Shown: positions 1,841 to 21,616 of the stretch, one piece after another
How the letters are laid out: each line of letters opens with the position of its first letter
How positions within the stretch are numbered: position 1 is the first letter of the stretch
Virus record (IMG/VR): IMGVR_UViG_3300010885_002948
Span: 1 to 22,071 of that record
Direction: 5' to 3' (one strand)
DNA length: 22,071 nucleotides
Source of the DNA: a virus
Notes under the pieces: model-generated
The model's input: only the letters and a program-made list of their open reading frames with translations
Database searches by the model: none
Told to the model about the DNA's origin: nothing
Translations under genes and position numbers: made by a program

Positions 1841-4800
1841 ATGGCTAATATAAACGGAACTGCAGAAATAAATTTCGTAGCTGGTAAAATGAACAAAGAT
1901 TATGACGAGAGGTTAATACCCCCTGGTCAGTATATCGATGCGTTAAATATTAGAATTGGATCAACAGAACTTGATAGCGTTGGAGCTATTGAGAATACAA
2001 AGGGTAATACTAAACTAACAGATATAAACTTTAACGGAACTCCTCTAATTAATCCAACATGTATTGGAGCTTACGAGGATGGATCTAATGAAACTATATA
2101 CTGGTTTGTATGTTCTGATAATGTTGACATGGTATTATCTTATAATACTAATAATTTTATTATTACGTACCACGTAATATCCACATCTGTACTTAACTTT
2201 GATAGAAAATACCTTATAAACGGTATAAATAAGGTTGATGACTTATTATTTTGGACAGATAATTTAAATGCTCCAAGAAAAATAAATGTAACCAGGAACT
2301 ACCCTAACCCAGTTGGTGGTGTTGACTCTATAAAGGAGAGTGATATATCTGTTATTGTATCTCCTCCTCACGAGGCTCCATCTATAGTACTACTAGATCT
2401 TCCAGCAGAAGAGAACTACATGACTGAAAAGTTTATCTCTTTTGCGTACAGGTATAAGTACAAGGATAATGAGTATAGTGCTATCTCTCAGTTTACTACC
2501 GCTGCATTTGAGCCTGGTCCGTTTCAATTAGATTTTAATACGTATAGTAATAAATCAATGCGTAATATATTTAATGGTGTTAATGTTTCTTTTAACACTG
2601 GTGATTATAATGTTATTGGAATTGACTTATGCTTTAAATTATCTGATTCAAATATTATAAACGTAATTGAAAAATACGATAAAGCAGAGCAGGGATGGTC
2701 TGACAATATCACTCAAAGTGTTTTATTTGACAATAGAAAGATATATACTGTTCTTACAGAGAGTGAGCTATTAAGGCTATACGATAACGTTCCTAGAACT
2801 GCTAGATCTCAAACTCTTATGGGTAACAGATTGATATATGGTAACTATGTTGATGGATACGATATTGATATTGAAAATGGTTTAGATTATTCATTAAATG
2901 TAGTAAATGAAGATATAAATCTTACATTTGTTCCGTATGAAATAGTAGATGGAGTTAGCTATACAATTGATCCAAATAACACTGTAATATCTAATAATTC
3001 TGCTATAGAACTAGATCTAACAGGAGTTAGCTTATCTAGCGGATCTGCATTTACTATGAATTTTAATATGAATCATAGTGCGTTTTCTGGAAGTGCTTTA
3101 TATAATAATCCACCGTCATCACCAGCTCCATTAAATGAATTTCAGACTTTATTTATCTTTACATTAAGAAGAGACTACTTAAATACTTATGATCTAGTTA
3201 CTAGTCCTGAGTTTATAGAGTCGTTTTCTAATCATAAACCATACCTACTATGCAGCTCAGGTACATCTCTAACAGATAATTTCAACTGTTCTATTGTATC
3301 TAAAGGAGTTTTCCCTCCATTTACTACTCCATGGCAGGATATTGATAGTGGTGTAACTGGTATAAATGGTGGATTTACTATAACAGCAACTCCTGGAAGT
3401 GATGTATTTCAAATTCAGGTTCCAGCTGTTAAATTTCAAATTGAAGATCCAGCAAATCCTGGTACTTATTTTTATGCTTACGAGTATTTTTCAAACTCAG
3501 CATTTACATCTTCATTTTATAAGATAGGAGCTAGAAAGAGTTTACATAGTAATAGAGGTTATGAGGTTGCCATTGTTTATATGGATGATAACTTAAGAAG
3601 TTCTACTGCATTAGTTAATAACACAAATACTGTATTTATACCAGCATCTGCATCAGACACTAGTAATCACATAGTAGCAACTGTTAATAACCTAGCTCCA
3701 AGCTGGGCAACAAGATACAAGTTTGTTGTGAAACCATCTAAAGCTAACTATCAGGTTATATATTCAAATCAATTCTATATTGCTGATACTGGTTTAACGT
3801 GGTTTAAGTTAGAGGGAGATAATAGAAGTAAGGTTCAAGAGAACTCAACAATTATAGTTAAGAGGGATACTAACGGAGTGTTAGATGGTTTAGTTAAAAC
3901 AAAGGTTTTAGAACTTAAGGCTCAAGGAGCTGATTTTATTCCTAATAATTCAAAAAATGAACCAGCTGGTATGTATATGGCCTTAAAGGCCGCTAATTTT
4001 TCAGCTCAATACGATCCAAACGCACTGATATCTTATGGAACTATAGAAACAGGTATAACTACAATATATCCTTGCTATGTAGATAACATATTCTTTGATC
4101 CATTAATCCCTCCAGGACCATCAAATCTAAGATATAGACCATACGACATTCCAGCTGGAAGTACTATTATAATTGGTATTGATTTATTAAGATCTGCATC
4201 TAGTATAGATCCTGGATCTTGCGGAGATAGTCACTATCAATTTAATAAAACATTTATAGCATCCCAGGATTATGGAAGCCTATACGACTTTGTACAGGGT
4301 GATAATGTAGACTTTACAACTGGATCATACTCTGGAGGTGAGGGACCTAATGCAAATGTACAGACACATACTCTAGAAAATTGGTCTAACTGTAGTGTTC
4401 CACTTCCTTTTGGTGGAGTTGATAATGAGTGTCACCTTCCATTTAATCAAGGAACTAATCAGTACCAGTTCCAGTATGACTCAAGCAATGGTGCTCTATA
4501 CCTTGTAGTTACAACAGGTACTCCTAACTGTGGAACTGGTGGATTTATTAGCATTAATCCAAAGTATTCAAGGACTACTATTAATATATCTGTACAAAGG
4601 GCCACATCTCTTATGATTTTTGAGACTGAAGCTGAAGACTCTGATGGAGAAATATTTTACGAGGGTAGCGATAGTTTTCCTATAGTAAATAGACTTCACA
4701 TGAGTGGAAACGAGCCTACAGATCAGTCACAGACATCTTCACTTCCAGCAATAGTTAATTTAAATTTCTTTAACTGCTACACATTTGGTAATGGAGCAGA

Positions 4801-8553: not shown

Positions 8554-9345
8554 ATGGGAGCAGCAGCAGGAGGCGCAGCAGCAGGAGGCGCAGGAGCATT
8601 AGGAGGTGCAGCAGGAGCAGCATCAGCAGCAACGCCATGGTTAACTATGGGGTTAGGTGCAGTAAATGTATTAACTGATTTAGCAGGAGCTGGAGCTCAA
8701 GTAAATGAGGCAAGATCAGCTGAAAGAGCAGCTCAAGACGCAGCTAAAAAAGAGGAGCAACTAAGAAGTCAGGACCTGTTCCAGGCGCTACAGATGCCTA
8801 TGGAGCAGTACAACAGAGCTGGAAGAGAGATAACATCTCAGGTAGGTCAAACTGTTGGTGCTTTACAGGAGGGAGATCCTAGGTTATTAGCTGGAGGTAT
8901 TGGTAAGGTTGCAGCAGCTGGTATAGAAGGAGAGGCGGATACAAGAGATGCAGCCGCTAATGATTTATTTAAGATAGGAGTGGCTCAGGCACAGTCTGGA
9001 ATGAATGTTAATCAAGACTTAGCTAATTTAGAGGCTGAAAGATTAAAAGGAGCTCAACAAGCGCAAGCCGCAGCAAAGCAGGCTGAACTAGCTGCGTATA
9101 CTGGAGCTGCTAATGCAGGAATTGGAGTTTTAAATACAGGTCTTTCAATGATACCATCCTTTGGATCTGATGGAGAGGCGCCTGTTTCAGGGTTAAAGGC
9201 AGTACAGCCAGTACAGTCAGTAAACATGACTCCAGGACAACAACTACAAAACATGTCAAATTCTAACATAGCTGCATTTAATAATAAATACCAGCCTATC
9301 CCAAGTTGGATGAACTCATTATCGTTTTTAAACAAACCACAATAG
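8554..9345 (+). CDS. Internal virion / DNA-ejection protein, Ala/Gly-rich
   Basis: A 263-aa protein, one base after the previous TAG. Residues 1-28 are almost only Ala and Gly, then a hydrophobic stretch (PWLTMGLGAVNVLTDLAGAG, 28-47) could insert into a membrane. A long helical, Ala/Gln-rich middle follows, with the block YNRAGREITSQVGQT..GALQEGDPRLLAGGIGK (about 86-118) that I associate with small internal virion proteins of podoviruses (similar in role to T7 gp14). A second weakly hydrophobic Gly/Ala segment lies at 181-200, and the tail is Gln/Asn-rich. It probably sits inside the capsid and leaves with the DNA to help form a channel across the envelope. Two larger candidate ejected proteins follow. 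Confidence 0.6.
   Translation: MGAAAGGAAAGGAGALGGAAGAASAATPWLTMGLGAVNVLTDLAGAGAQVNEARSAERAAQDAAKKEEQLRSQDLFQALQMPMEQYNRAGREITSQVGQTVGALQEGDPRLLAGGIGKVAAAGIEGEADTRDAAANDLFKIGVAQAQSGMNVNQDLANLEAERLKGAQQAQAAAKQAELAAYTGAANAGIGVLNTGLSMIPSFGSDGEAPVSGLKAVQPVQSVNMTPGQQLQNMSNSNIAAFNNKYQPIPSWMNSLSFLNKPQ
8560..8589 (+). repeat. Two exact 15-bp tandem repeats, GCAGCAGCAGGAGGC
   Basis: Two exact copies (8560-8574, 8575-8589) continue into more GCAGGA-type units. They lie in frame and encode part of the Ala/Gly N-terminus of the ejection protein, so slippage would change its length without breaking the frame. Confidence 0.85.
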
Positions 9346-9346
9346 T

Positions 9347-10849
9347 ATGGCAGAATACAGAGGATATGTCAATCCAGCAGATGTAAAAGCAACACCAACA
9401 TTCGACTGGAATGCAGTCATTGGCAGTGTTCAGAAGTCATTAACAGATTCTGAGGCTGCAAGACAAGCAAACAGAGATAAACTAGAGAAGGATACCAACG
9501 ATAGTATTACCGAGATGGGTAAGATTACCCTTGGTAAGGACGAGGCTCTTAATCAAAAGCTTACTGAGGCTGCATATAATTCTAAGAAGGCAGTAGGAGA
9601 CTATGCTAAACTAGTTCGTGAAGGTAAGGCTGCTCAGAAGGACTTTAACTTGTTCAATCAAAACGCAAAGGACACCTTTAATCAGATTGATGCTGTAGGT
9701 AAGAATGCAAAGGCAGCTTATGACACATATATAGCAGAAACTAAGGCTGGTAATCTATCAGCTGCTTCTGATTATATGGCTCAGACGCTTGGACTAGCTG
9801 CTACATTAAAAGATAAAAATATTATAATGGATAATAAGGGTAGAGGCTTTATAGCTGGTAAGGACCCTAACGATATTATTGAGGTTAACTGGTTAAATAA
9901 CGAAAGAAACTTATTAGTGCCTAAGGTAAAACTAGACGTTGAGCTTGACGCTCAGGCAGATAAGATCAAAGACTTTACTAAGTATGGTAAGGTAGGTGCT
10001 GGCGGAATATGGACCATTAATGATCCTGTTGCTAGACCTGGATTTGAAGCATTTGAGAATAATGTGGCTAATGGTTTAACTAGTGAGCCTCTTAAGGCAC
10101 TATCTGTACTTGTTGACTATGGTGACATTGACGGTAAGAGATTTACTCCTACGATAAACAAGGCAGAAGCTGCTAAGGATCCATCTAAGATCTTTGTTCA
10201 GCTGAACTCAACTGGTAACCCAGAGCCTGTGTTAACTCCAGAGCAAGACAAGATTGCTAAGGATACAGCTAAGAGATACCTAAGAGAGAGACTAGTATAC
10301 GAACAAAAGCAGGTAGAGAATACTTGGCGTGGATGGGCTCCAGATAGAAGCGGAGGAGGAGATGGTAAGCCAGCTCCAGTTGTTCCTACAACCCAAGACA
10401 TAAGATACACAACATCTACTATAGATCCAGCTACTGGAAAGAGAACTTCAAGGTCAGGATTTACAATGGATGTTCCAGTTATTGACAAGTCAACAGGAGC
10501 CGCTCAAAATCTTAAGGCTATATATATAGATCCAGTAACTAATGAGTTACAGATGAAGATTGAAGAAAAGAATGTAGTTGATGGCGTAACAACTGTATCT
10601 GATGTTACCTACTCAAGCAAGAAGACAAAGAATAAAGAAGGTAATGATGTAGCTCCTGATATTTCTAAGATATCAAACGTAGCTACTCAGATATATGATC
10701 CTGCAAGAAGAAGGTACTTAAGTGGCTATAAAGAACTTTTTGACTACTTAAAACCTCAGGCTGATAAAAACTGGAAGTACATAAAGTCACAACAAGGAGG
10801 TGGACAAGAAACTCCTGAACAGAGAGCTGCTAGAATTGCTAATCAATAA
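9347..10849 (+). CDS. Internal virion / cargo-type protein, coiled coil
   Basis: A 500-aa protein one base after the previous TAG. Residues about 29-150 are Lys/Glu/Ala-rich and strongly helical (EAARQANRDKLEKDTNDS, KLTEAAYNSKKAVGDYAKLV), likely a coiled coil. The middle is mixed alpha/beta, with a linker rich in Gly, Asp and Pro (SGGGDGKPAPVVPTT, about 345-360) leading to a beta-rich C-terminal part. The last residues (GGGQETPEQRAARIANQ) look unstructured. No enzyme motif is visible. Its place between an ejection-type protein and a giant polyvalent protein suggests a capsid-internal cargo protein, as in crAss-like phages, but this is inferred from position. It has no signal peptide or membrane helix. 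Confidence 0.5.
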   Translation: MAEYRGYVNPADVKATPTFDWNAVIGSVQKSLTDSEAARQANRDKLEKDTNDSITEMGKITLGKDEALNQKLTEAAYNSKKAVGDYAKLVREGKAAQKDFNLFNQNAKDTFNQIDAVGKNAKAAYDTYIAETKAGNLSAASDYMAQTLGLAATLKDKNIIMDNKGRGFIAGKDPNDIIEVNWLNNERNLLVPKVKLDVELDAQADKIKDFTKYGKVGAGGIWTINDPVARPGFEAFENNVANGLTSEPLKALSVLVDYGDIDGKRFTPTINKAEAAKDPSKIFVQLNSTGNPEPVLTPEQDKIAKDTAKRYLRERLVYEQKQVENTWRGWAPDRSGGGDGKPAPVVPTTQDIRYTTSTIDPATGKRTSRSGFTMDVPVIDKSTGAAQNLKAIYIDPVTNELQMKIEEKNVVDGVTTVSDVTYSSKKTKNKEGNDVAPDISKISNVATQIYDPARRRYLSGYKELFDYLKPQADKNWKYIKSQQGGGQETPEQRAARIANQ

Positions 10850-16800: not shown

Positions 16801-19430
16801 AGAAGGCTGTAGAGAAGGCCATTCAGTCTGATACTAATGCAATCCAGAAGGAGTACGAGAGTATAGTTGCTGAGTCTGACTTGGAACAAATGATACTTAG
16901 TGGTGTTGAGAAACAGGTTAACGAGATCTATAAAAAATTACCTACAGCAAGAAGAGCAAAGGCAGATAAGGCTATTGCTGCTCTTGAAAAGATACAGAAT
17001 AAGTTAAGAGGCAAGGCTTACGATGCTACCATTGGAGTTCCAATTGCTCTTATCGACTCTAGTATAACTATTATAAAGAACTCTATCAAGGCTGGTGTTA
17101 GTATAGCTGATGCTATCGAGATAGGTATCAATCATATAAAGGAGAGGTACGGTAATAACTGGGCCAACGAAGATATGTTCAGAAAGGATATGACCGAAGG
17201 TTTTAAGACTGAGGGTATATCTGAAAAGGAAATAAAAGCCAAGGAACTATCTAAGAAGGAGATAGTGAAACAAGCCCTTATAGATGCTGGATTTGGTAAG
17301 GAGATAACAGTAAAGACTAAAGAAGGTAAAGTAAAACGTGATGTACTTGACTGGAAGAAACTTGCTGGAGAGGAAGGAAGTGTAGATAAGATAAGAGAGA
17401 ATGTAGAGGGAATAATAGGTAAGGAAGCTGCTAAGGAATTAGAGGACGAGTACAACAACCTTAGAGCTAGTATTATTGAGAAGTCTCTTAATGAGTTAGA
17501 GAATAGAAACACTCCAAGAAAGAAGGTAGATCTAAAGACAAGCGCTAAAAAGTTAGCAGAGCTTTACAACTATGGTCTATTTGAAAAGGAGTCTGACACC
17601 TACGATCGATTAATAAATACTGCCCTTGGTATGAACCAACTGGATCAGAAAAGTTTTGACGAGGCTAAGTCTTTAGCTAAGAGCTTGTCTGAATTGTTCT
17701 CTCAAGAGGATAGCGAAGGAAATAAACTAAGCCAGGAGTACTTAAAGTATGCTGAGAGATCTATAAATAAAAAAATAGAATCATTATTAAGTAAGGTTGC
17801 ATGGTCACAATCAAATGGAGCCTACAAGGCTGTTGTGGTTGCTAAAGAGTTCATTGGTTTAGCACAAAGAAATGCGTTAGTATCTGTAGCTCAGGCTATT
17901 GAGAACACAACTTCTGGATATATCTCTAGAGCATTTAAGAAGATTGGATTTATGTTTGATAATGTAGATACAAAAGAAATGAAGGCTTCTAGAAACAAGT
18001 TAGCTAGGATGACCTTTAAGGATATTACATTAAACGGAGGTCTTGAGTTTGGTGATGTTACATCTCCATTCATTACTAAAAGTAAGACAATGGATTTAAT
18101 TATTAACGGTAGTGATAGCAGACTATACCATGCACTAACATCTACAGCTCTTGGTAAACCATTCCTAGAGTCTGCCGATAGTATGCACAAGGCTGCGCTT
18201 GCTCAAGGATTCTTCCATTACAACCTAATAAAGATACTTAGAAAGAAGGGTATGTCTAAGACAGAGGCTAAGAACTATGTTTCAGAACAACTAACTGGAC
18301 AGTCTTTTGAGGATGCCTTAGTTACTTCTAAACAGATCATTGATAAGATAAATGAGAATGCTGGTAAGAAGGTAATCTCAGACTCTAAAGAAAGTGTCTA
18401 CAGGTTCGCAAATGACTTGGTTAATGAGGCTTTAGTTCAGGGCAATAAAATTACACTACAGGAACTTGAGGCTTCTTTAAAGTCAGCTGAGACTGTTGCT
18501 GGATTCGAACTAGGTCATGAACCAAACAACATTATATCTAAACCATTAAACCTATTCAACTCTTGGGTACAGACCAGAACAGATAGAGCTGTTAAGGAGA
18601 AGAAGTGGAACGATGCTGCTGCATTAACTGCTGCGTCAATAGTTACAACAAATATACTTAACCCTTACGTTGGAGGTGGTACTAACTGGACGTTATTAGC
18701 AGCTCAAAAGGCTGGTATACCTACACTAAGTACCATATACTGGAACATTAAGTCTAGAGGAAGTAAGCTTGACTTAAGTTCAGAGGAAGGAATGAAGAAC
18801 CTTGAGAAGGATCTTAAGTACCAGTTACTGGCTAAGAACGCTAACGCTAGAATGTTTATTGGAGCTGCTGTAACTTTAGCTGCATTTGCATTAGCTAGTG
18901 CTACTGGAGCTGATGATGATCTGTACGAGTGGTTAGAGAAGAATACTTGGGCTAAAAAGTATATGAAGAAGATGAATCCTCCAGCTGTACAGTTTATGTT
19001 AGCTCAGAAGGATCAAAAGCTTGGAGAGTTCTTAGGCCAGCAGATGAATATAAAGGCAGACGCGTTTGATGAAGGTAAAAAACTTCAACAGGCACTGAAG
19101 AATGCCGCATCTGGTAAAACACAGAAGGCTTTAGGAGGTGCTGGTCAGCTAGTTGGAAGTAGATTATCTACGCCTATCATACCTTGGAGAGTGGTTAGGG
19201 ATGTTCGTGATATCTATAGAGGATTGAATGGACTGCCAGCTATAGAATACGACTACAAGTCTAGTGGATTTGGAAGTGGATACTTCCAGGGAGGAATGGT
19301 AGAACAGCTAGGACTAAGACCTGAGAATGTAAATGATACCGAAGGAAATAGAGGATCATCTGGAAACAGAATGTCATCTGGAAATAGAGAGGCTTCTGGA
19401 AGCAGAAGTCAGAGTGGCAGTAGAGATTAA
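10860..19430 (+). CDS. Giant polyvalent internal virion protein (2856 aa)
   Basis: The largest gene here, ten bases after the previous stop. Visible parts: 1-790, helical and Lys-rich, with a Gly/Ala hydrophobic patch at about 487-560; 800-940, ADP-ribosyltransferase-like (FFHVGG with H806, MYYTK with Y842/Y843, TTEFAPTDVQLK with E931); 1055-1165, GGSTF...IGTWYDAKSGKTYIDVS...TGGTG, a domain I recall from other large phage proteins; 1215-1370, metallopeptidase-like with H1277-E-V-F-H1281 and a possible third ligand at E1337; 1440-1750, another associated domain (GSTLSDKLTAGEL, GGVGYPEVTGYVWA, PAVMSNVSHMSNKNM); then long helical regions, NPYVGGGTNW (from about 2600), a hydrophobic helix at 2665-2683, and a basic repeat tail. 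Such 'polyvalent' proteins are thought to enter the cell with phage DNA. No RNA polymerase motif was seen. Confidence 0.65.
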   Translation: MLQRPKNNPSGLNDENHKQLISELTKYAQEGASDDDLKKFKETFIAQKKKSVSQPTSQKNVLASKPKQNVTSTLSVTEETQAPAESDGLGGPPKMKTFTGLTPEEQQTLQAKPVIKVSKSSELIGKRLKLQNELSKIKVTPQNQEEISRKTDELSSVIFEQDLIDYSRLSEIENQFKQAKNEEAVDLEANKRLDDLLTTTGIWNNVKATSLNAYNTLIDQAASITDEPGIKEFKADIDPLSEEKKEVKKDAAIKKIKLNDDQINELAKQLYKNKQVNYIETDNINSFLDNLNEDDKNLLKQSRKQTAEHLQESNLKEEKIINAYEVIGNKKIKEYKNIENQILNYKNSGLQIPKNLSDSYVSLGQEIIGIGSDIKKRQDIINKNKSDLGTAQQEFDLLKRQYGDVENFLLNTGIAARELGVGIISGLDYLGSRTSPLAGLPNVQLQRKIIDINKGLEEERSNLRKSVESVESPEGFLNYVSDVMSNQIPNLVATSTGAGGLGIIGLSSTGQKYADMNKEVLEGKASYSPLQMASAPLLYGAAEVVSELPTLSILKKGGRVFESIVKNESDLITKSAKQKAKEWAKDWGIDTSKELAGEEFTNFAQNFNDKYVLGKKDVGLLDNTGTVFKDTFTLTSILKAAPHVAGAILKPLQTNKDLNVLDENSRKIIQFSKQLEDESLTDVEKSVIKKQIDKATVENSTILANTIEKVNNMPDDVYKKIIDLNNKAAEIKTDAFDINNGTLPNKEELIKDLQQEYKTIQEDRSSLIDAKYEPVEVVATEVISPETSSNYANLTEDKDGNFVFFHVGGKGYDKINKSTGGTTATSKEEAGALSKVGGVAMYYTKPEDSERMVNGEAKYAVSIAKDKVYDANTDANNYAEQAKTLHEEENPGKAFDANSKLAYITKIAGENGYDMVVSEWMGKTRAQTTTEFAPTDVQLKEGDKISKAFDQEYRSNTDKGYKAIIPDSKDAKLKAVYDQIYTEKNKVNEYDDLYRLSSQEAATINQDEVTKLIEEDKTLSQETKDMYAEALAYEPGQRRTELPVETQFESHKKNGGSTFLANGENKAGSDASSVSIFTERSKIIDGEITEKDINDFKEANKDLFEGNEDILAIGTWYDAKSGKTYIDVSAVVPNEQAIRLGKQYNQKAVYNLKTNEEVDTGGTGEAIEGLKPEIDRINDIREILKPTAAKSKLAAFKAKYIDKPVYDRAKLDTQVENAKKSLSKILPNVKFVVHDTEKSYENATGESGSGGMYIMSSNGDKVIHVNSQKANGRTVAHEVFHAIILDKIGGDKSVQDITKRMVDAVYKTASPELKDELDAFASRYTDKTIRDEEKLAELIGIMADGYPQMSAANKSVIKKWLDSLAKIFGLKPFTDNEVIDLLNVIASNVSTGDVILDEKVSILGYGSVEIKKDIKRESKFIDSLIFNRFPTNKNTKVIENFDLSKINGQVAGSTLSDKLTAGELKKYKTVDGEDVLESVYTFLGGVGYPEVTGYVWAASEESGVKKIIDTMKVSSDGYRYLIPAVMSNVSHMSNKNMTSITMEVFKEAINNKELNRDTFKKVILKAFDKKEVKRFKEGATKAISGNISAIDMADKLRDYVISSKMTFESRRGLLEGMVGNSEAGNPKFSTVGTFLSLAKSLTEPIAKDAELYQVPVVIRTKGNLTPVKTNKEDKFYHESYGYHIESDQEIEVLHLDGVYNLTDIIPEFTKEDGTTVSTEKELKEKGAKGWDIKRILTNLGRTHGLSKYSAEIVSKKRSQESESYSDMKDIVKDMIDDGMSITEIKKTITSELGADQVSLAERAYNELTTVKEEVVATNDTEAFRDKVKDLPKSGIVGKYLSGETIETVEGEAPRNAQETEVMSLIDAGMHGKETVTMAKEVFGDKYIEKTLEFLDTANLKPHEKAVLYVSLENEMFDRVNAEPDNVGLKKLQDLVRAKSQQFLRESSLAINAGRLRAIMKDGFNYEAVTDKFLSSDQLRDKKAVEKAIQSDTNAIQKEYESIVAESDLEQMILSGVEKQVNEIYKKLPTARRAKADKAIAALEKIQNKLRGKAYDATIGVPIALIDSSITIIKNSIKAGVSIADAIEIGINHIKERYGNNWANEDMFRKDMTEGFKTEGISEKEIKAKELSKKEIVKQALIDAGFGKEITVKTKEGKVKRDVLDWKKLAGEEGSVDKIRENVEGIIGKEAAKELEDEYNNLRASIIEKSLNELENRNTPRKKVDLKTSAKKLAELYNYGLFEKESDTYDRLINTALGMNQLDQKSFDEAKSLAKSLSELFSQEDSEGNKLSQEYLKYAERSINKKIESLLSKVAWSQSNGAYKAVVVAKEFIGLAQRNALVSVAQAIENTTSGYISRAFKKIGFMFDNVDTKEMKASRNKLARMTFKDITLNGGLEFGDVTSPFITKSKTMDLIINGSDSRLYHALTSTALGKPFLESADSMHKAALAQGFFHYNLIKILRKKGMSKTEAKNYVSEQLTGQSFEDALVTSKQIIDKINENAGKKVISDSKESVYRFANDLVNEALVQGNKITLQELEASLKSAETVAGFELGHEPNNIISKPLNLFNSWVQTRTDRAVKEKKWNDAAALTAASIVTTNILNPYVGGGTNWTLLAAQKAGIPTLSTIYWNIKSRGSKLDLSSEEGMKNLEKDLKYQLLAKNANARMFIGAAVTLAAFALASATGADDDLYEWLEKNTWAKKYMKKMNPPAVQFMLAQKDQKLGEFLGQQMNIKADAFDEGKKLQQALKNAASGKTQKALGGAGQLVGSRLSTPIIPWRVVRDVRDIYRGLNGLPAIEYDYKSSGFGSGYFQGGMVEQLGLRPENVNDTEGNRGSSGNRMSSGNREASGSRSQSGSRD
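13257..13680 (+). other. ADP-ribosyltransferase-like domain within the giant protein
   Basis: Residues about 800-940. The pattern fits an H-Y-E type ART fold: a strand with FFHVGGKGYDKI (H806), a GG turn, a second strand AMYYTKPED (Y842/Y843), and a late strand TTTEFAPTDVQLKEG in which E931 would be the catalytic Glu. ART domains are a known component of phage polyvalent proteins. The call rests on motif shape only. Confidence 0.45.
14506..14970 (+). other. HEXXH zinc-metallopeptidase-like domain within the giant protein
   Basis: Residues about 1217-1370. A strand-rich lead (LPNVKFVVHDTE, GMYIMSSNGDKVIHVN) is followed by the helix RTVAHEVFHAIIL, giving HEVFH at 1277-1281 with Zn ligands H1277 and H1281 and catalytic E1278. 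About 56 residues later comes EEKLAELIGIMADG, a plausible gluzincin third-ligand helix (E1337). Fold order and spacing fit metallopeptidase domains of polyvalent proteins. It could process virion or host proteins. Confidence 0.6.
19344..19427 (+). repeat. Degenerate 18-bp tandem repeat coding for GNRxxS units
   Basis: The last 28 residues of the giant protein are GNRGSS, GNRMSS, GNREAS, GSRSQS, GSRD: four hexapeptides plus four residues. The third bases vary, so it is not a fresh duplication. The tail is basic and flexible and ends at the stop codon. Confidence 0.85.
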
Positions 19431-19432
19431 AC

Positions 19433-19450
19433 AAAAAAGCCTCCAATTAA
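19433..19450. repeat. Direct repeat, left copy: half terminator
   Basis: The 18-mer AAAAAAGCCTCCAATTAA is identical to 19775-19792. It holds only one arm of the terminator hairpin; the matching GGAGGC arm is absent here. The stop codon of the HNH gene (19447-19449, minus strand) lies inside it. Confidence 0.95.
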
Positions 19451-19761
19451 GAAACTGTCCAATCTTTCTGATTAAATGTTTTTAGCCTATGACAATTTGC
19501 ACATAATGTCTGATGGTTAGATGAATCGTTATTATTTCTATTTCCATCAATATGATCTAGATCAAGTTGACATGGATTAATAGGTATAAATCCACACAAT
19601 TCACAAGTATCTTTTTTTAGTATTTTATTTATTCGTTCTTTCTTACCATGTTTTGTTTTAGAACATGATCGACAATAAGTATTAAATAATGGATTTCCAG
19701 TAACACGACTAAATCCATTAGGTCTGCATTTATTTCCGCATTTACATAAAGGTCTATTCAT
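19447..19761 (-). CDS. HNH endonuclease (free-standing homing type)
   Basis: A 104-aa protein from the ATG at 19761. A longer reading from TTG (19788) would start inside the terminator repeat and is less likely. The N-terminal half has a Cys cluster (C6, C8, C12, C30, C33) that could bind zinc; the C-terminal half has C53-x2-C56, QLDLDHIDGNRNNND (D69, H70), then LCANCHRLKTF (C87, C90, H91), the HNH core with its structural zinc Cys pairs. This matches small HNH endonucleases often found between phage genes. It nicks or cuts DNA and is probably a selfish homing gene. No intron is present. It is antisense to readthrough from the giant gene and lies beyond a terminator for upstream minus-strand transcription; no own promoter is visible. 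Confidence 0.88.
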   Translation of the reverse strand: MNRPLCKCGNKCRPNGFSRVTGNPLFNTYCRSCSKTKHGKKERINKILKKDTCELCGFIPINPCQLDLDHIDGNRNNNDSSNHQTLCANCHRLKTFNQKDWTVS

Positions 19762-19774
19762 AATAATGTAAGTT

Positions 19775-19792
19775 AAAAAAGCCTCCAATTAA
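19775..19792. repeat. Direct repeat, right copy
   Basis: Exact 18-bp copy of 19433-19450, 342 bp away. Here it continues into AGGAGGCTTT, completing the terminator hairpin, so this copy probably keeps the original right junction. Confidence 0.95.
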
Positions 19793-19810
19793 AGGAGGCT
19801 TTACTTTTTT
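19775..19810. terminator. Bidirectional intrinsic terminator
   Basis: A stem of AAAGCCTCC (19778-19786) and GGAGGCTTT (19794-19802) has a 7-base loop. T-tracts lie on both sides: T6 at 19805-19810 for plus transcription and A6 at 19775-19780, read as T6, for minus transcription. It would end both converging transcription units. Confidence 0.9.
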
Positions 19811-20045
19811 AGTCTATTAGATTATCTATATCTATACCGTACTCTTCGAACAGTTTGTTGATGTGTTCAAATACAACATACAGGTCATCATCTCCTGACT
19901 GGTCTAGAAGCTGCTCACATTTTTTATAGGAGTTATGCTTTAACTCCCAAAGCATCATGGCCATGTCTCTAGACTTTACAAACCTATTAAAGTCTTGATT
20001 CTCATCAAAATCATTTAAGTTCCAAGTTATTACTGCCTTGCTCAT
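19809..20045 (-). CDS. Small conserved phage protein, function unknown
   Basis: A 78-aa acidic protein. It begins with MSKAVITWNLNDFDENQDFNRFVKSRDMAMMLWEL, a pattern I recall from small uncharacterised proteins of many phages (beta strand 'KAVITWNL', then a helix with 'SRDMAMMLWEL'). It ends with a helix and FEEYGIDIDNLID. No catalytic motif is visible. Its ATG overlaps the stop of the phosphoesterase gene by four bases (ATGA), so the two are probably translationally coupled and co-transcribed. Its stop codon lies at the edge of the bidirectional terminator, making it the last gene of the ancestral minus-strand operon. Confidence 0.7.
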   Translation of the reverse strand: MSKAVITWNLNDFDENQDFNRFVKSRDMAMMLWELKHNSYKKCEQLLDQSGDDDLYVVFEHINKLFEEYGIDIDNLID

Positions 20046-21616
20046 AGTGTGGTGTACTTACCGTTAACAATATTTATAAGCTGGGCCTTACCATTAGGAT
20101 GTATTACAGCGTTTGTATTCATCCAGCTCGATAATCCCTTGTTATAGCCTACCCTAAGGTGTGTTAGTGTTCCAACACATATGTGACCGTCCAGCCTCAA
20201 AGGAGAGTGCGTGTGTCCTGTGATGTTCTTGGTATTCATCTGGGCATACTGCATGGCACTACCCCTGCTACCGTTTGCACCTATGTGACCGTGAACTCCA
20301 AGCTCCCAGTCCATAACCCTAAGGCTATCGTCTATACCTAAACAGAATGCGTTAGTAACGCCAAGTGTCTTCAAGTACAATGGAATAACTCCCTTACTAT
20401 CGTCAGAGTTAACCATCATAGAGGCAAGCTGTATGTAGGCCATCTTGTTACTGTGCTTACGCCAGTCTACATCGTTTAGCCATCTGTCTAGGAACTCATC
20501 GTGGTTACTTCTTACTACACCGAAGTTATAGTCGGAGTACCTCTCGAAGAAGTCAACCATCTCATCAAGCTCATCGATCAACGAGTTTGATCCATCCTCC
20601 TCACGCTTAAGTAGTTGAAACGGTTGGTTTCTCTCGTGGTGAGATATAGAGTGTCCATTGAACACGTCATGGAGTATGATCTGCTTGCAGTTAAGTCTAT
20701 CAGCCATATCCAAGGATACCTCCAGGACCTTTTCATTTGTTTCTCCAAGGTGTAGGTCACCAAACACCATCACGGTAGGGTCGTCAACCTTCTCAACCAG
20801 TCCAGCAGATACGTGGAAGTCAAGGTCATAGAATGATCCAAGGTCATCTGCTGTAACCTGTCTAACGTGGAAGTCATCACCATCAAGCTCTACTATAGCA
20901 AATCCATACGTGTGATGGAACTCGCCCTTCTTACCCACCTTTGTGTCTGTGTAGTTCTCAACAGATACAGACCCTGTAGTAAGGATCAGCTTGTGAGGAT
21001 AACCATCAAGTATTGGAAGTGACTTAAGGTGAACCCTAGGATGCCCAATGATGCATGATTCAAGCCCTGTCAGCCCATTTATTCCAGATAGTGGAGTAGA
21101 TGCTGTCGGCTGAATTTTAAGGTCTGATAGGATGCATAGGTGCTTGTGTATCTTGTGTCTATTTGCATCAAGGTATGGAACCACCCTCTCGTGCCAAGAG
21201 TTCTGAGCAACGTCCTCCTTGTTCTGGATTGACTTGCTCGCAGACAGTGATATTGGGTTCTTGTACCTTCCAGCTATGATGTGTATGGACGCATCGATAT
21301 GACTAGCGTAGGCCTCGATATTTGTCATTAGCCTATGGTTTATGTCTGTCTCTGACTGACACCATGACACTATAAACCTCCTCTTAGAGTTATCGTGCAC
21401 CTTCTTCTTAGCCTCCTTGAAGACATCCGTGTTCTCAATCTCTAGATTATTAGAGATCTTATTCTTCTCAAGCCACTTTGACACCTTTCGTCTAACATTA
21501 TCGTCATAGACAATACCGTGTTCATTGCATGATTTCTCGCAGGACACCTTTATGCTATGTCCAGTTGAGAAGTAATGCAGCACTGAATCTTTAAACTCCT
21601 GAGTATACTTTTTCAT
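20042..21616 (-). CDS. Calcineurin-like metallophosphoesterase with N-terminal extension
   Basis: A 524-aa protein. The C-terminal domain (about 280-524) shows the metallophosphoesterase motifs in order: VFGDLHLG (D287, H289), a reduced second motif LHDVFNG (D317), RSNHDEF (N371, H372, D373), HGHIG (H442/H444) and ITGHTHSP (H468, H470), all expected for two-metal catalysis. The N-terminus (1-55) is helical and helix-turn-helix-like. The middle (80-275) forms a conserved-looking block (HIIAGRYKNPIS, IQPTASTPLSG, IIGHPR, LTTGSVSVENYTD, GKKGEFHHTYGFAIVE) that I recall from phage proteins of this architecture, function unknown. Substrate is probably nucleic acid, but not provable here. GGNHD-type motifs usually have Gly-Asn-His; here it is Ser-Asn-His. 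The DNA is more GC-rich than the neighbouring minus-strand genes. Confidence 0.75.
   Translation of the reverse strand: MKKYTQEFKDSVLHYFSTGHSIKVSCEKSCNEHGIVYDDNVRRKVSKWLEKNKISNNLEIENTDVFKEAKKKVHDNSKRRFIVSWCQSETDINHRLMTNIEAYASHIDASIHIIAGRYKNPISLSASKSIQNKEDVAQNSWHERVVPYLDANRHKIHKHLCILSDLKIQPTASTPLSGINGLTGLESCIIGHPRVHLKSLPILDGYPHKLILTTGSVSVENYTDTKVGKKGEFHHTYGFAIVELDGDDFHVRQVTADDLGSFYDLDFHVSAGLVEKVDDPTVMVFGDLHLGETNEKVLEVSLDMADRLNCKQIILHDVFNGHSISHHERNQPFQLLKREEDGSNSLIDELDEMVDFFERYSDYNFGVVRSNHDEFLDRWLNDVDWRKHSNKMAYIQLASMMVNSDDSKGVIPLYLKTLGVTNAFCLGIDDSLRVMDWELGVHGHIGANGSRGSAMQYAQMNTKNITGHTHSPLRLDGHICVGTLTHLRVGYNKGLSSWMNTNAVIHPNGKAQLINIVNGKYTTL

Follow-up and report, generated by a model that had tools for sequence, protein, structure and literature searches.

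Are intrinsic terminators entry points for free-standing homing genes? An HNH gene inside a split and partly duplicated phage terminator

Free-standing homing endonuclease genes of the T4 type, such as the HNH gene mob and the GIY-YIG gene segD, are intronless single genes amid conserved genes, whose presence varies between relatives and which show signs of lateral transfer (PMC2988022). How such genes enter new sites is an open question. The review just cited treats the insertions as intergenic, and "duplication" is absent from its vocabulary. In fungal mitochondria (Allomyces, Glomus), mobile endonuclease open reading frames (ORFs) at atp6, cox2 and nad3 carry duplicated gene 3' ends (PMC3630166). 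The HNH endonucleases of lactococcal Skunavirus phages have fixed insertion points and are related by location, and some have marker exclusion activity; the main text of that study contains neither "terminator" nor "duplicat-" (PMC12724721). Here, we analyze an HNH gene of 104 amino acids (aa) in IMG/VR virus record IMGVR_UViG_3300010885_002948, positions 1 to 22,071, which whole stretch of 22,071 nucleotides (nt) is called the window. Judged against its relatives, the gene is inserted within a predicted bidirectional intrinsic terminator, with duplication of the loop, the right arm and the T-tract.

An earlier, sequence-only reading of the window had pointed to the 18-mer AAAAAAGCCTCCAATTAA in two exact copies 342 bp apart around the HNH gene (Table 1), which is confirmed; no further match was found in the window even when three mismatches were allowed. 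Shuffled sequences give a chance expectation of 0.03 matches, and this repeat is the sole exact one of at least 16 nt in the window, barring a GCAGCA-type microrepeat at 8560. A chance origin of the repeat was rejected on these two grounds. The same reading held that the right copy completes a bidirectional terminator and that the left copy is one arm of it, as the predicted folds of both strands bear out. That is, the right copy belongs to a terminator on both strands, with a 9-bp stem and a 7-nt loop, whose RNA folds at -14.9 and -14.4 kcal/mol (z -3.7 and -3.2) on the two strands. The left copy lacks its partner arm: on the plus strand the fold reaches only -0.8 kcal/mol, and on the minus strand there is only a different hairpin of -10.5 kcal/mol, with the U run inside it. 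Along the minus strand, the order is the stop codon of a 78-aa gene, AAAGCCTCCT, TTAATTGGAGGCTTTTTT, AACTTACATTATT, the ATG and the rest of the HNH gene, GTTTC, TTAATTGGAGGCTTTTTT again, GTTTAATC and the end of a giant gene. The TAA stop codon of the HNH gene occupies bases 19447-19449, within the left copy. The 324-bp insert has a GC content of 28.4%, compared with 35.7% for the window, and is thus AT-richer.

To read the junction across relatives, viral contigs sharing the DNA transfer protein gene of the window were used. Eight of them (L002, L004, L005, L006, L007, L008, L009 and L021) lack the HNH gene at the terminator and carry a single hairpin each, in keeping with the earlier claim that the gene sits inside a split terminator. 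L005 reads AAAGCCTCCTTAATTGGAGGCTTTTTTGTTT, with one copy of the 18-mer and then GTTTA as in the downstream flank of the window, and is the natural counterpart of the product predicted beforehand for deletion of one 342-bp unit. Comparison with the empty L005 and L004 indicates that the downstream copy in the window runs on into the native flank GTTTAATC. Two copies occur in none of the eight relatives without the gene, and the duplication therefore accompanies the insertion. Another relative, L003, has the HNH gene and both copies; its downstream half is substituted at two positions (TTAATCGAAGGCTTTTTT), in line with the weak constraint to be expected on half a hairpin. When viral contigs were scanned for the 18-mer, 12 matches were obtained, of which only those in the window's own contig, L003 and L005 come from this phage group; the remaining nine sites occur singly and are either terminator-like or due to chance. 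The comparisons show the insertion point to be the loop of the predicted hairpin, the upstream copy keeping one whole terminator and the downstream half giving the HNH gene its stop codon. HNH genes with unrelated flanks, which would have told against this picture, do not occur among the close relatives, whereas many distant homologues do have other flanks.

The insert has evidently moved independently of its surroundings. Between the window and L003, it is 98.1% identical, while the flanks are 84.5% and 89.0% identical. The two 1-kb flanks of L003 are 96.5% and 97.4% identical to those of the empty L004, and both contigs lack the 78-aa gene. The flank markers nearest to the insert in L003 are L004-like (AAAAACAAAGCC vs. 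AAAAAAGTAAAGCC on one side and GTTTAATTTC vs. GTTTAATCTC on the other); consequently, the exchanged tract ends inside the terminator arms or within ~20 bp of them. This pattern shows an apparent passage of the insert between related phages with very little flanking DNA.

Then, does the arrangement recur in other phages? HNH homologues were gathered from viral contigs and phages, and further HNH genes with duplicated terminator flanks, for which the sequence-only reading had suggested a search, were found in L095/L096 and in Vibrio phage jenny 12G5. In L095, the protein is 69% identical and its gene lies downstream of a tail-fibre-like gene; AGCCCCTTAATTGGGGCT occurs exactly twice, 334 bp apart, and the HNH stop codon falls in the loop of the second copy. 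L225, from the same sample, has the same upstream flank and one AGCCCCTTAATTGGGGCT without the HNH gene, L224 has the downstream flank of L095 after one, different hairpin, and L096 is a slightly diverged version of the L095 arrangement. In jenny 12G5 (L128), the full terminator AACCCGCTTTAATAGCGGGTTT is upstream and ATAGCGGGTTTT, with the stop codon, is downstream; the downstream half terminator is ATAGCGGGTTT and the duplication amounts to ~11-20 bp. In its empty relative MG592439 (L137), a single terminator is present, and the loop is the same. The duplication is partial in E. coli phage IMEP8, where the left arm is upstream and the whole terminator downstream. The IMEP8 insertion (L134, 1388-1830) joins two terminator alleles, XT73-like on the left and SU10-like on the right, both known from empty sites, and the junction is likely a recombination scar. 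There are also three lineages without clear duplication. The gene is at the hairpin base in VBP47, with the hairpin itself altered compared with the empty PJN101; directly after the T-tract in SA173, as judged by the empty ES2-BCU-3; and before the hairpin in Streptomyces phage Muntaha (empty relative Annadreamy), where the TAA stop codon is part of the tetraloop.

Taken together, all seven homologue lineages with an empty relative have the gene in or against a terminator-like hairpin, the seven having been picked for informative-looking flanks or relatives at hand and not randomly; the duplication is clear in three, partial in one and not clear in three. The filled and empty sites in several unrelated phages suggest that intrinsic terminators may serve as entry points. 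A fixed cassette with an identical repeat everywhere was rejected, since the repeats vary by phage and match the local empty site. For PS17B-2 (L135), helene 12B3 and eugene 12A10 are too divergent around the site to provide a readable empty junction. In addition, genome contigs scanned for relatives of the HNH gene yielded 11 loci, most of them weak, and HNH homologues without an annotated feature in public records were noticed in Vibrio phage VP93 (L129, 1474-1776) and in the Kremar record.

The homologue loci were also compared statistically. The flank-repeat score is an ungapped comparison of the upstream with the downstream flank, and its expectation was obtained by pairing flanks of different loci. 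A score of at least 11 is reached by 8 of 97 loci (0.97 expected), not all of them independent because the window/L003 and L095/L096 pairs are included, and a score of at least 14 by three (0.0 expected); at some loci scoring exactly 11 (L211, L173), the repeats are not terminator arms. The stop codon lies in a strong hairpin in 7 of 93 HNH genes and in none of 380 control ORFs (Fisher p 9e-6), and a strong hairpin is found no more than 70 nt upstream of 17 of the 93 genes vs. 20 of the 380 controls (p 1e-4); it should be noted that the controls are mechanical calls from the same loci and that the loci are mutually related, so that the p-values are guides only. Most of the distant HNH homologues are located away from terminators. 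A tree of the 93 homologues was based on 115 columns and has many open forks; on it, clear duplications appear in two places and the terminator association is scattered.

The 104-aa product, with N-terminal paired cysteines of zinc-binding type and an HNH motif, is assigned by these features to the HNH (beta-beta-alpha-Me) endonucleases, and would be expected to have endonuclease activity. Residues D69-H70, N82, N89 and H91 and the CxxC pairs are invariant or nearly so among 16-30 homologues. The Pfam HNH match scores 15.4 bits, under the family cut-off. An AlphaFold2 model has a mean predicted local distance difference test (pLDDT) value of 83.5 and a predicted template modelling (pTM) score of 0.54. 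With this model, Foldseek found only weak, distant HNH matches, namely Hpy99I, DotN and an HNH nicking enzyme, Gme (PDB 3fc3, 5x1h, 4h9d; best E 0.013), and hmmsearch a weak match to DotN (E 4e-4); these enzymes have a beta-beta-alpha-Me/HNH-type fold as here, with weak likeness to the 104-aa protein in fold and sequence. A longer version of the ORF with a TTG start, extending to 19788, is a mechanical call. The gene lies between genes and within none, and no group I intron or other structured RNA was found with Rfam at gathering thresholds in 18800-20400.

Table 1. Features at the HNH insertion site, in coordinates of the window.
Feature	Position	Strand	Remarks
Giant gene, 2856 aa	10860..19430	+	Adjacent terminator lost
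18-bp duplication, downstream copy (3' of HNH), TTAATTGGAGGCTTTTTT on - strand	19433..19450	-	Half terminator, holds HNH stop codon
HNH endonuclease gene, 104 aa	19447..19761	-	PHROG 2255, E 3.5e-13; start ATG
Inserted segment, 324 bp	19451..19774	-	Missing from eight relatives
18-bp duplication, upstream copy (5' of HNH)	19775..19792	-	Loop, right arm and T-tract of whole terminator
Intact bidirectional intrinsic terminator, AAAGCCTCC-AATTAAA-GGAGGCTTT	19778..19802	both	Predicted fold
Gene of unknown function, 78 aa	19809..20045	-	Intact terminator should still end its transcript
DNA transfer protein gene (PHROG 1745)	20042..21616	-	Anchor for finding relatives

The phage is distant kin of the Flavobacterium podoviruses of the elemo group, by ~65% DNA identity over 465 bp of the DNA transfer gene. 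Transcripts of the operon formed by the 78-aa and transfer genes should still stop at the intact terminator, right before the HNH start, and the HNH gene would then depend for its expression on read-through or on a promoter not seen here. The giant gene has lost its nearest terminator, and its transcripts should run antisense through the HNH gene as far as the intact terminator. Lying behind a terminator and probably under antisense transcription, the HNH gene should therefore be weakly expressed, a situation resembling that of T4 segD (PMC2988022). Near the end of the giant gene, 19344-19407 holds three imperfect 28-nt repeats with 18-nt spacing, seen in the giant protein as a C-terminal repeat of SSGNR type.

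The junction is variable in other ways. The terminator comes straight after the transfer gene in L003 and L004, the 78-aa gene being missing. In L008, a different HNH-like gene (9578-10114) lies between the transfer and 78-aa genes, via overlapping ATGA. In L010, a GIY-YIG gene (1768-2523) directly 3' of the transfer gene has NPNGKSQHIINNKYTTL at its end, which copies the C-terminus of the transfer protein in frame; the upstream copy is synonymously recoded, and the downstream one is native DNA as in L011. Another GIY-YIG-like gene occupies the same junction in L021 (~2155-3070), followed by the remnant AACAACAAATACACAACGATATGAG, which looks like another duplicate of the transfer gene's end.

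How did the gene come to lie there? We consider it probable, with fair confidence, that a bidirectional intrinsic terminator at the meeting point of two convergent genes was invaded by a free-standing HNH gene of the homing type, and that break repair doubled part of the target; the gene is probably selfish. The HNH enzyme, or another break, would open the empty terminator or its neighbourhood. Illegitimate, microhomology-driven repair at the terminator arms would then insert the gene and double part of the target, and the survivors would be insertions that leave one working terminator. Subsequent spread into empty relatives could proceed by ordinary break-and-copy homing. In T4, illegitimate break repair with microhomology junctions is reported to be a route to ectopic sites for introns (PMC2988022). 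Since the length of the duplication and its position on the hairpin vary and three lineages lack it, illegitimate repair fits at least as well as a staggered cut. Several points weigh against this account. VBP47, SA173 and Muntaha show no clear duplication and IMEP8 only a partial one, exact 18-bp repeats occur in two lineages only, the lateral transfer is based on the single contig pair of the window and L003, and the cut made by a free-standing endonuclease is usually distant from the gene that encodes it (PMC2988022).

The alternatives address different steps and are not mutually exclusive, so that their probabilities overlap. Among them, we regard as a plausible, though tentative, reading that the enzyme cuts a conserved neighbour gene and the insertion may fall anywhere, those in terminators surviving when one working hairpin is left, with the terminator itself no target. 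At least one whole hairpin is left in every insertion compared, the free-standing endonucleases of T4 make their cuts at distances of hundreds to thousands of bp, and segD likewise lies between terminators (PMC2988022). Such tolerance may account for the terminator location without any recognition, but alone it leaves unexplained both the duplication and the fact that so little flanking DNA was transferred in L003.

It is also possible, if somewhat doubtful, that the ends of the donor gene were already terminator-like and both recombined with the single terminator of the recipient, which would yield repeats without a staggered cut. Both breakpoints in L003 are in or near terminator arms, the two sides in IMEP8 match different terminator alleles, the core CTTAATTGG is common to the window and L095 sites, and the GIY-YIG gene of L010 sits behind a recoded 3' end of its neighbour. 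However, in each lineage (L005, L225) the duplicated arms equal the terminator of the recipient itself, which would call for a matching donor each time, and donors whose arms do not match were found for neither the window nor L095.

The sequence-only reading had suggested a staggered-cut or duplication-based route. With a staggered cut, the terminator would be nicked twice at positions ~18 bp from each other, the HNH segment joined in and the gaps filled, much as a transposon inserts. The layout of flank, repeat, insert, repeat and flank, with both copies matching the native site, agrees with such target-site duplication, as does its length of exactly 18 bp in the window and L095 despite different stems (~11-20 bp in jenny 12G5). 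We hold this origin unlikely, since the duplicated part is placed differently on the hairpin (loop to T-tract in the window, whole hairpin in L095) and three of the seven lineages have no clear duplication; transposase and terminal repeats are absent as well. An 18-nt stagger would be unusual among HNH enzymes. Still more improbable in our view is a phage HNH branch that recognises terminator hairpins, through a core like CTTAAT or an extruded cruciform, and makes a fixed staggered break of ~18 bp. If this were true, the gene would be a minimal transposon restoring the terminator it invades. Finally, a stable resident gene of ordinary kind that has a terminator of its own, with a repeat due to chance or to a tandem copy of a common terminator, is hardly credible and was rejected: similar terminators are common in these phages, but the left copy is a half hairpin forming no such terminator, the gene is absent from eight relatives, the insert is 98% identical amid flanks of 84-89%, and the pattern is repeated in other phages.

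On the preferred account of invasion and break repair, the duplications are a record of the joining event. The arrangement also suggests how the gene may persist: the neighbour retains a terminator, the parasite borrows a stop codon and its expression should be low, and new sites could thus be entered without harm to the virus. The sites are short, testable substrates.

Compared with known systems, the gene agrees with a free-standing homing endonuclease gene, being absent at the site in close relatives and, by the identity pattern above, laterally spread. As with transposons, direct repeats arise at insertion (one copy in L005, two in the window), but the duplication length is not constant (18, 18 and ~11-20 bp, with no clear duplication in VBP47, SA173 and Muntaha). 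Neither transposase nor terminal inverted repeats were found in the 324-bp insert, which contains the HNH gene only; by the features tested, the element is not a transposon. It shares the HNH motif with the T4-type mob genes, and segD lies between intrinsic terminators (PMC2988022), whereas here the gene is inside the hairpin, with an 18-bp duplication and a stop codon taken from the hairpin. A search of the open PMC literature found no HNH gene in a terminator or with target duplication, which is not proof of absence. The earlier premise that homing genes insert without duplicating their target was too strong, since the fungal mobile ORFs (PMC3630166) and the GIY-YIG gene of L010 duplicate 3' ends. 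As regards the duplication, the mobile ORFs of fungal mitochondria offer the nearest parallel, and the L010 gene is arranged likewise at the transfer gene. In both the fungal case and the window, a copy of the 3' part of the target keeps the upstream unit functional, and what remains of the native sequence follows downstream, after the endonuclease gene; the fungal copy is coding and diverged, that is, foreign, whereas the terminator arm in the window is identical to the native one.
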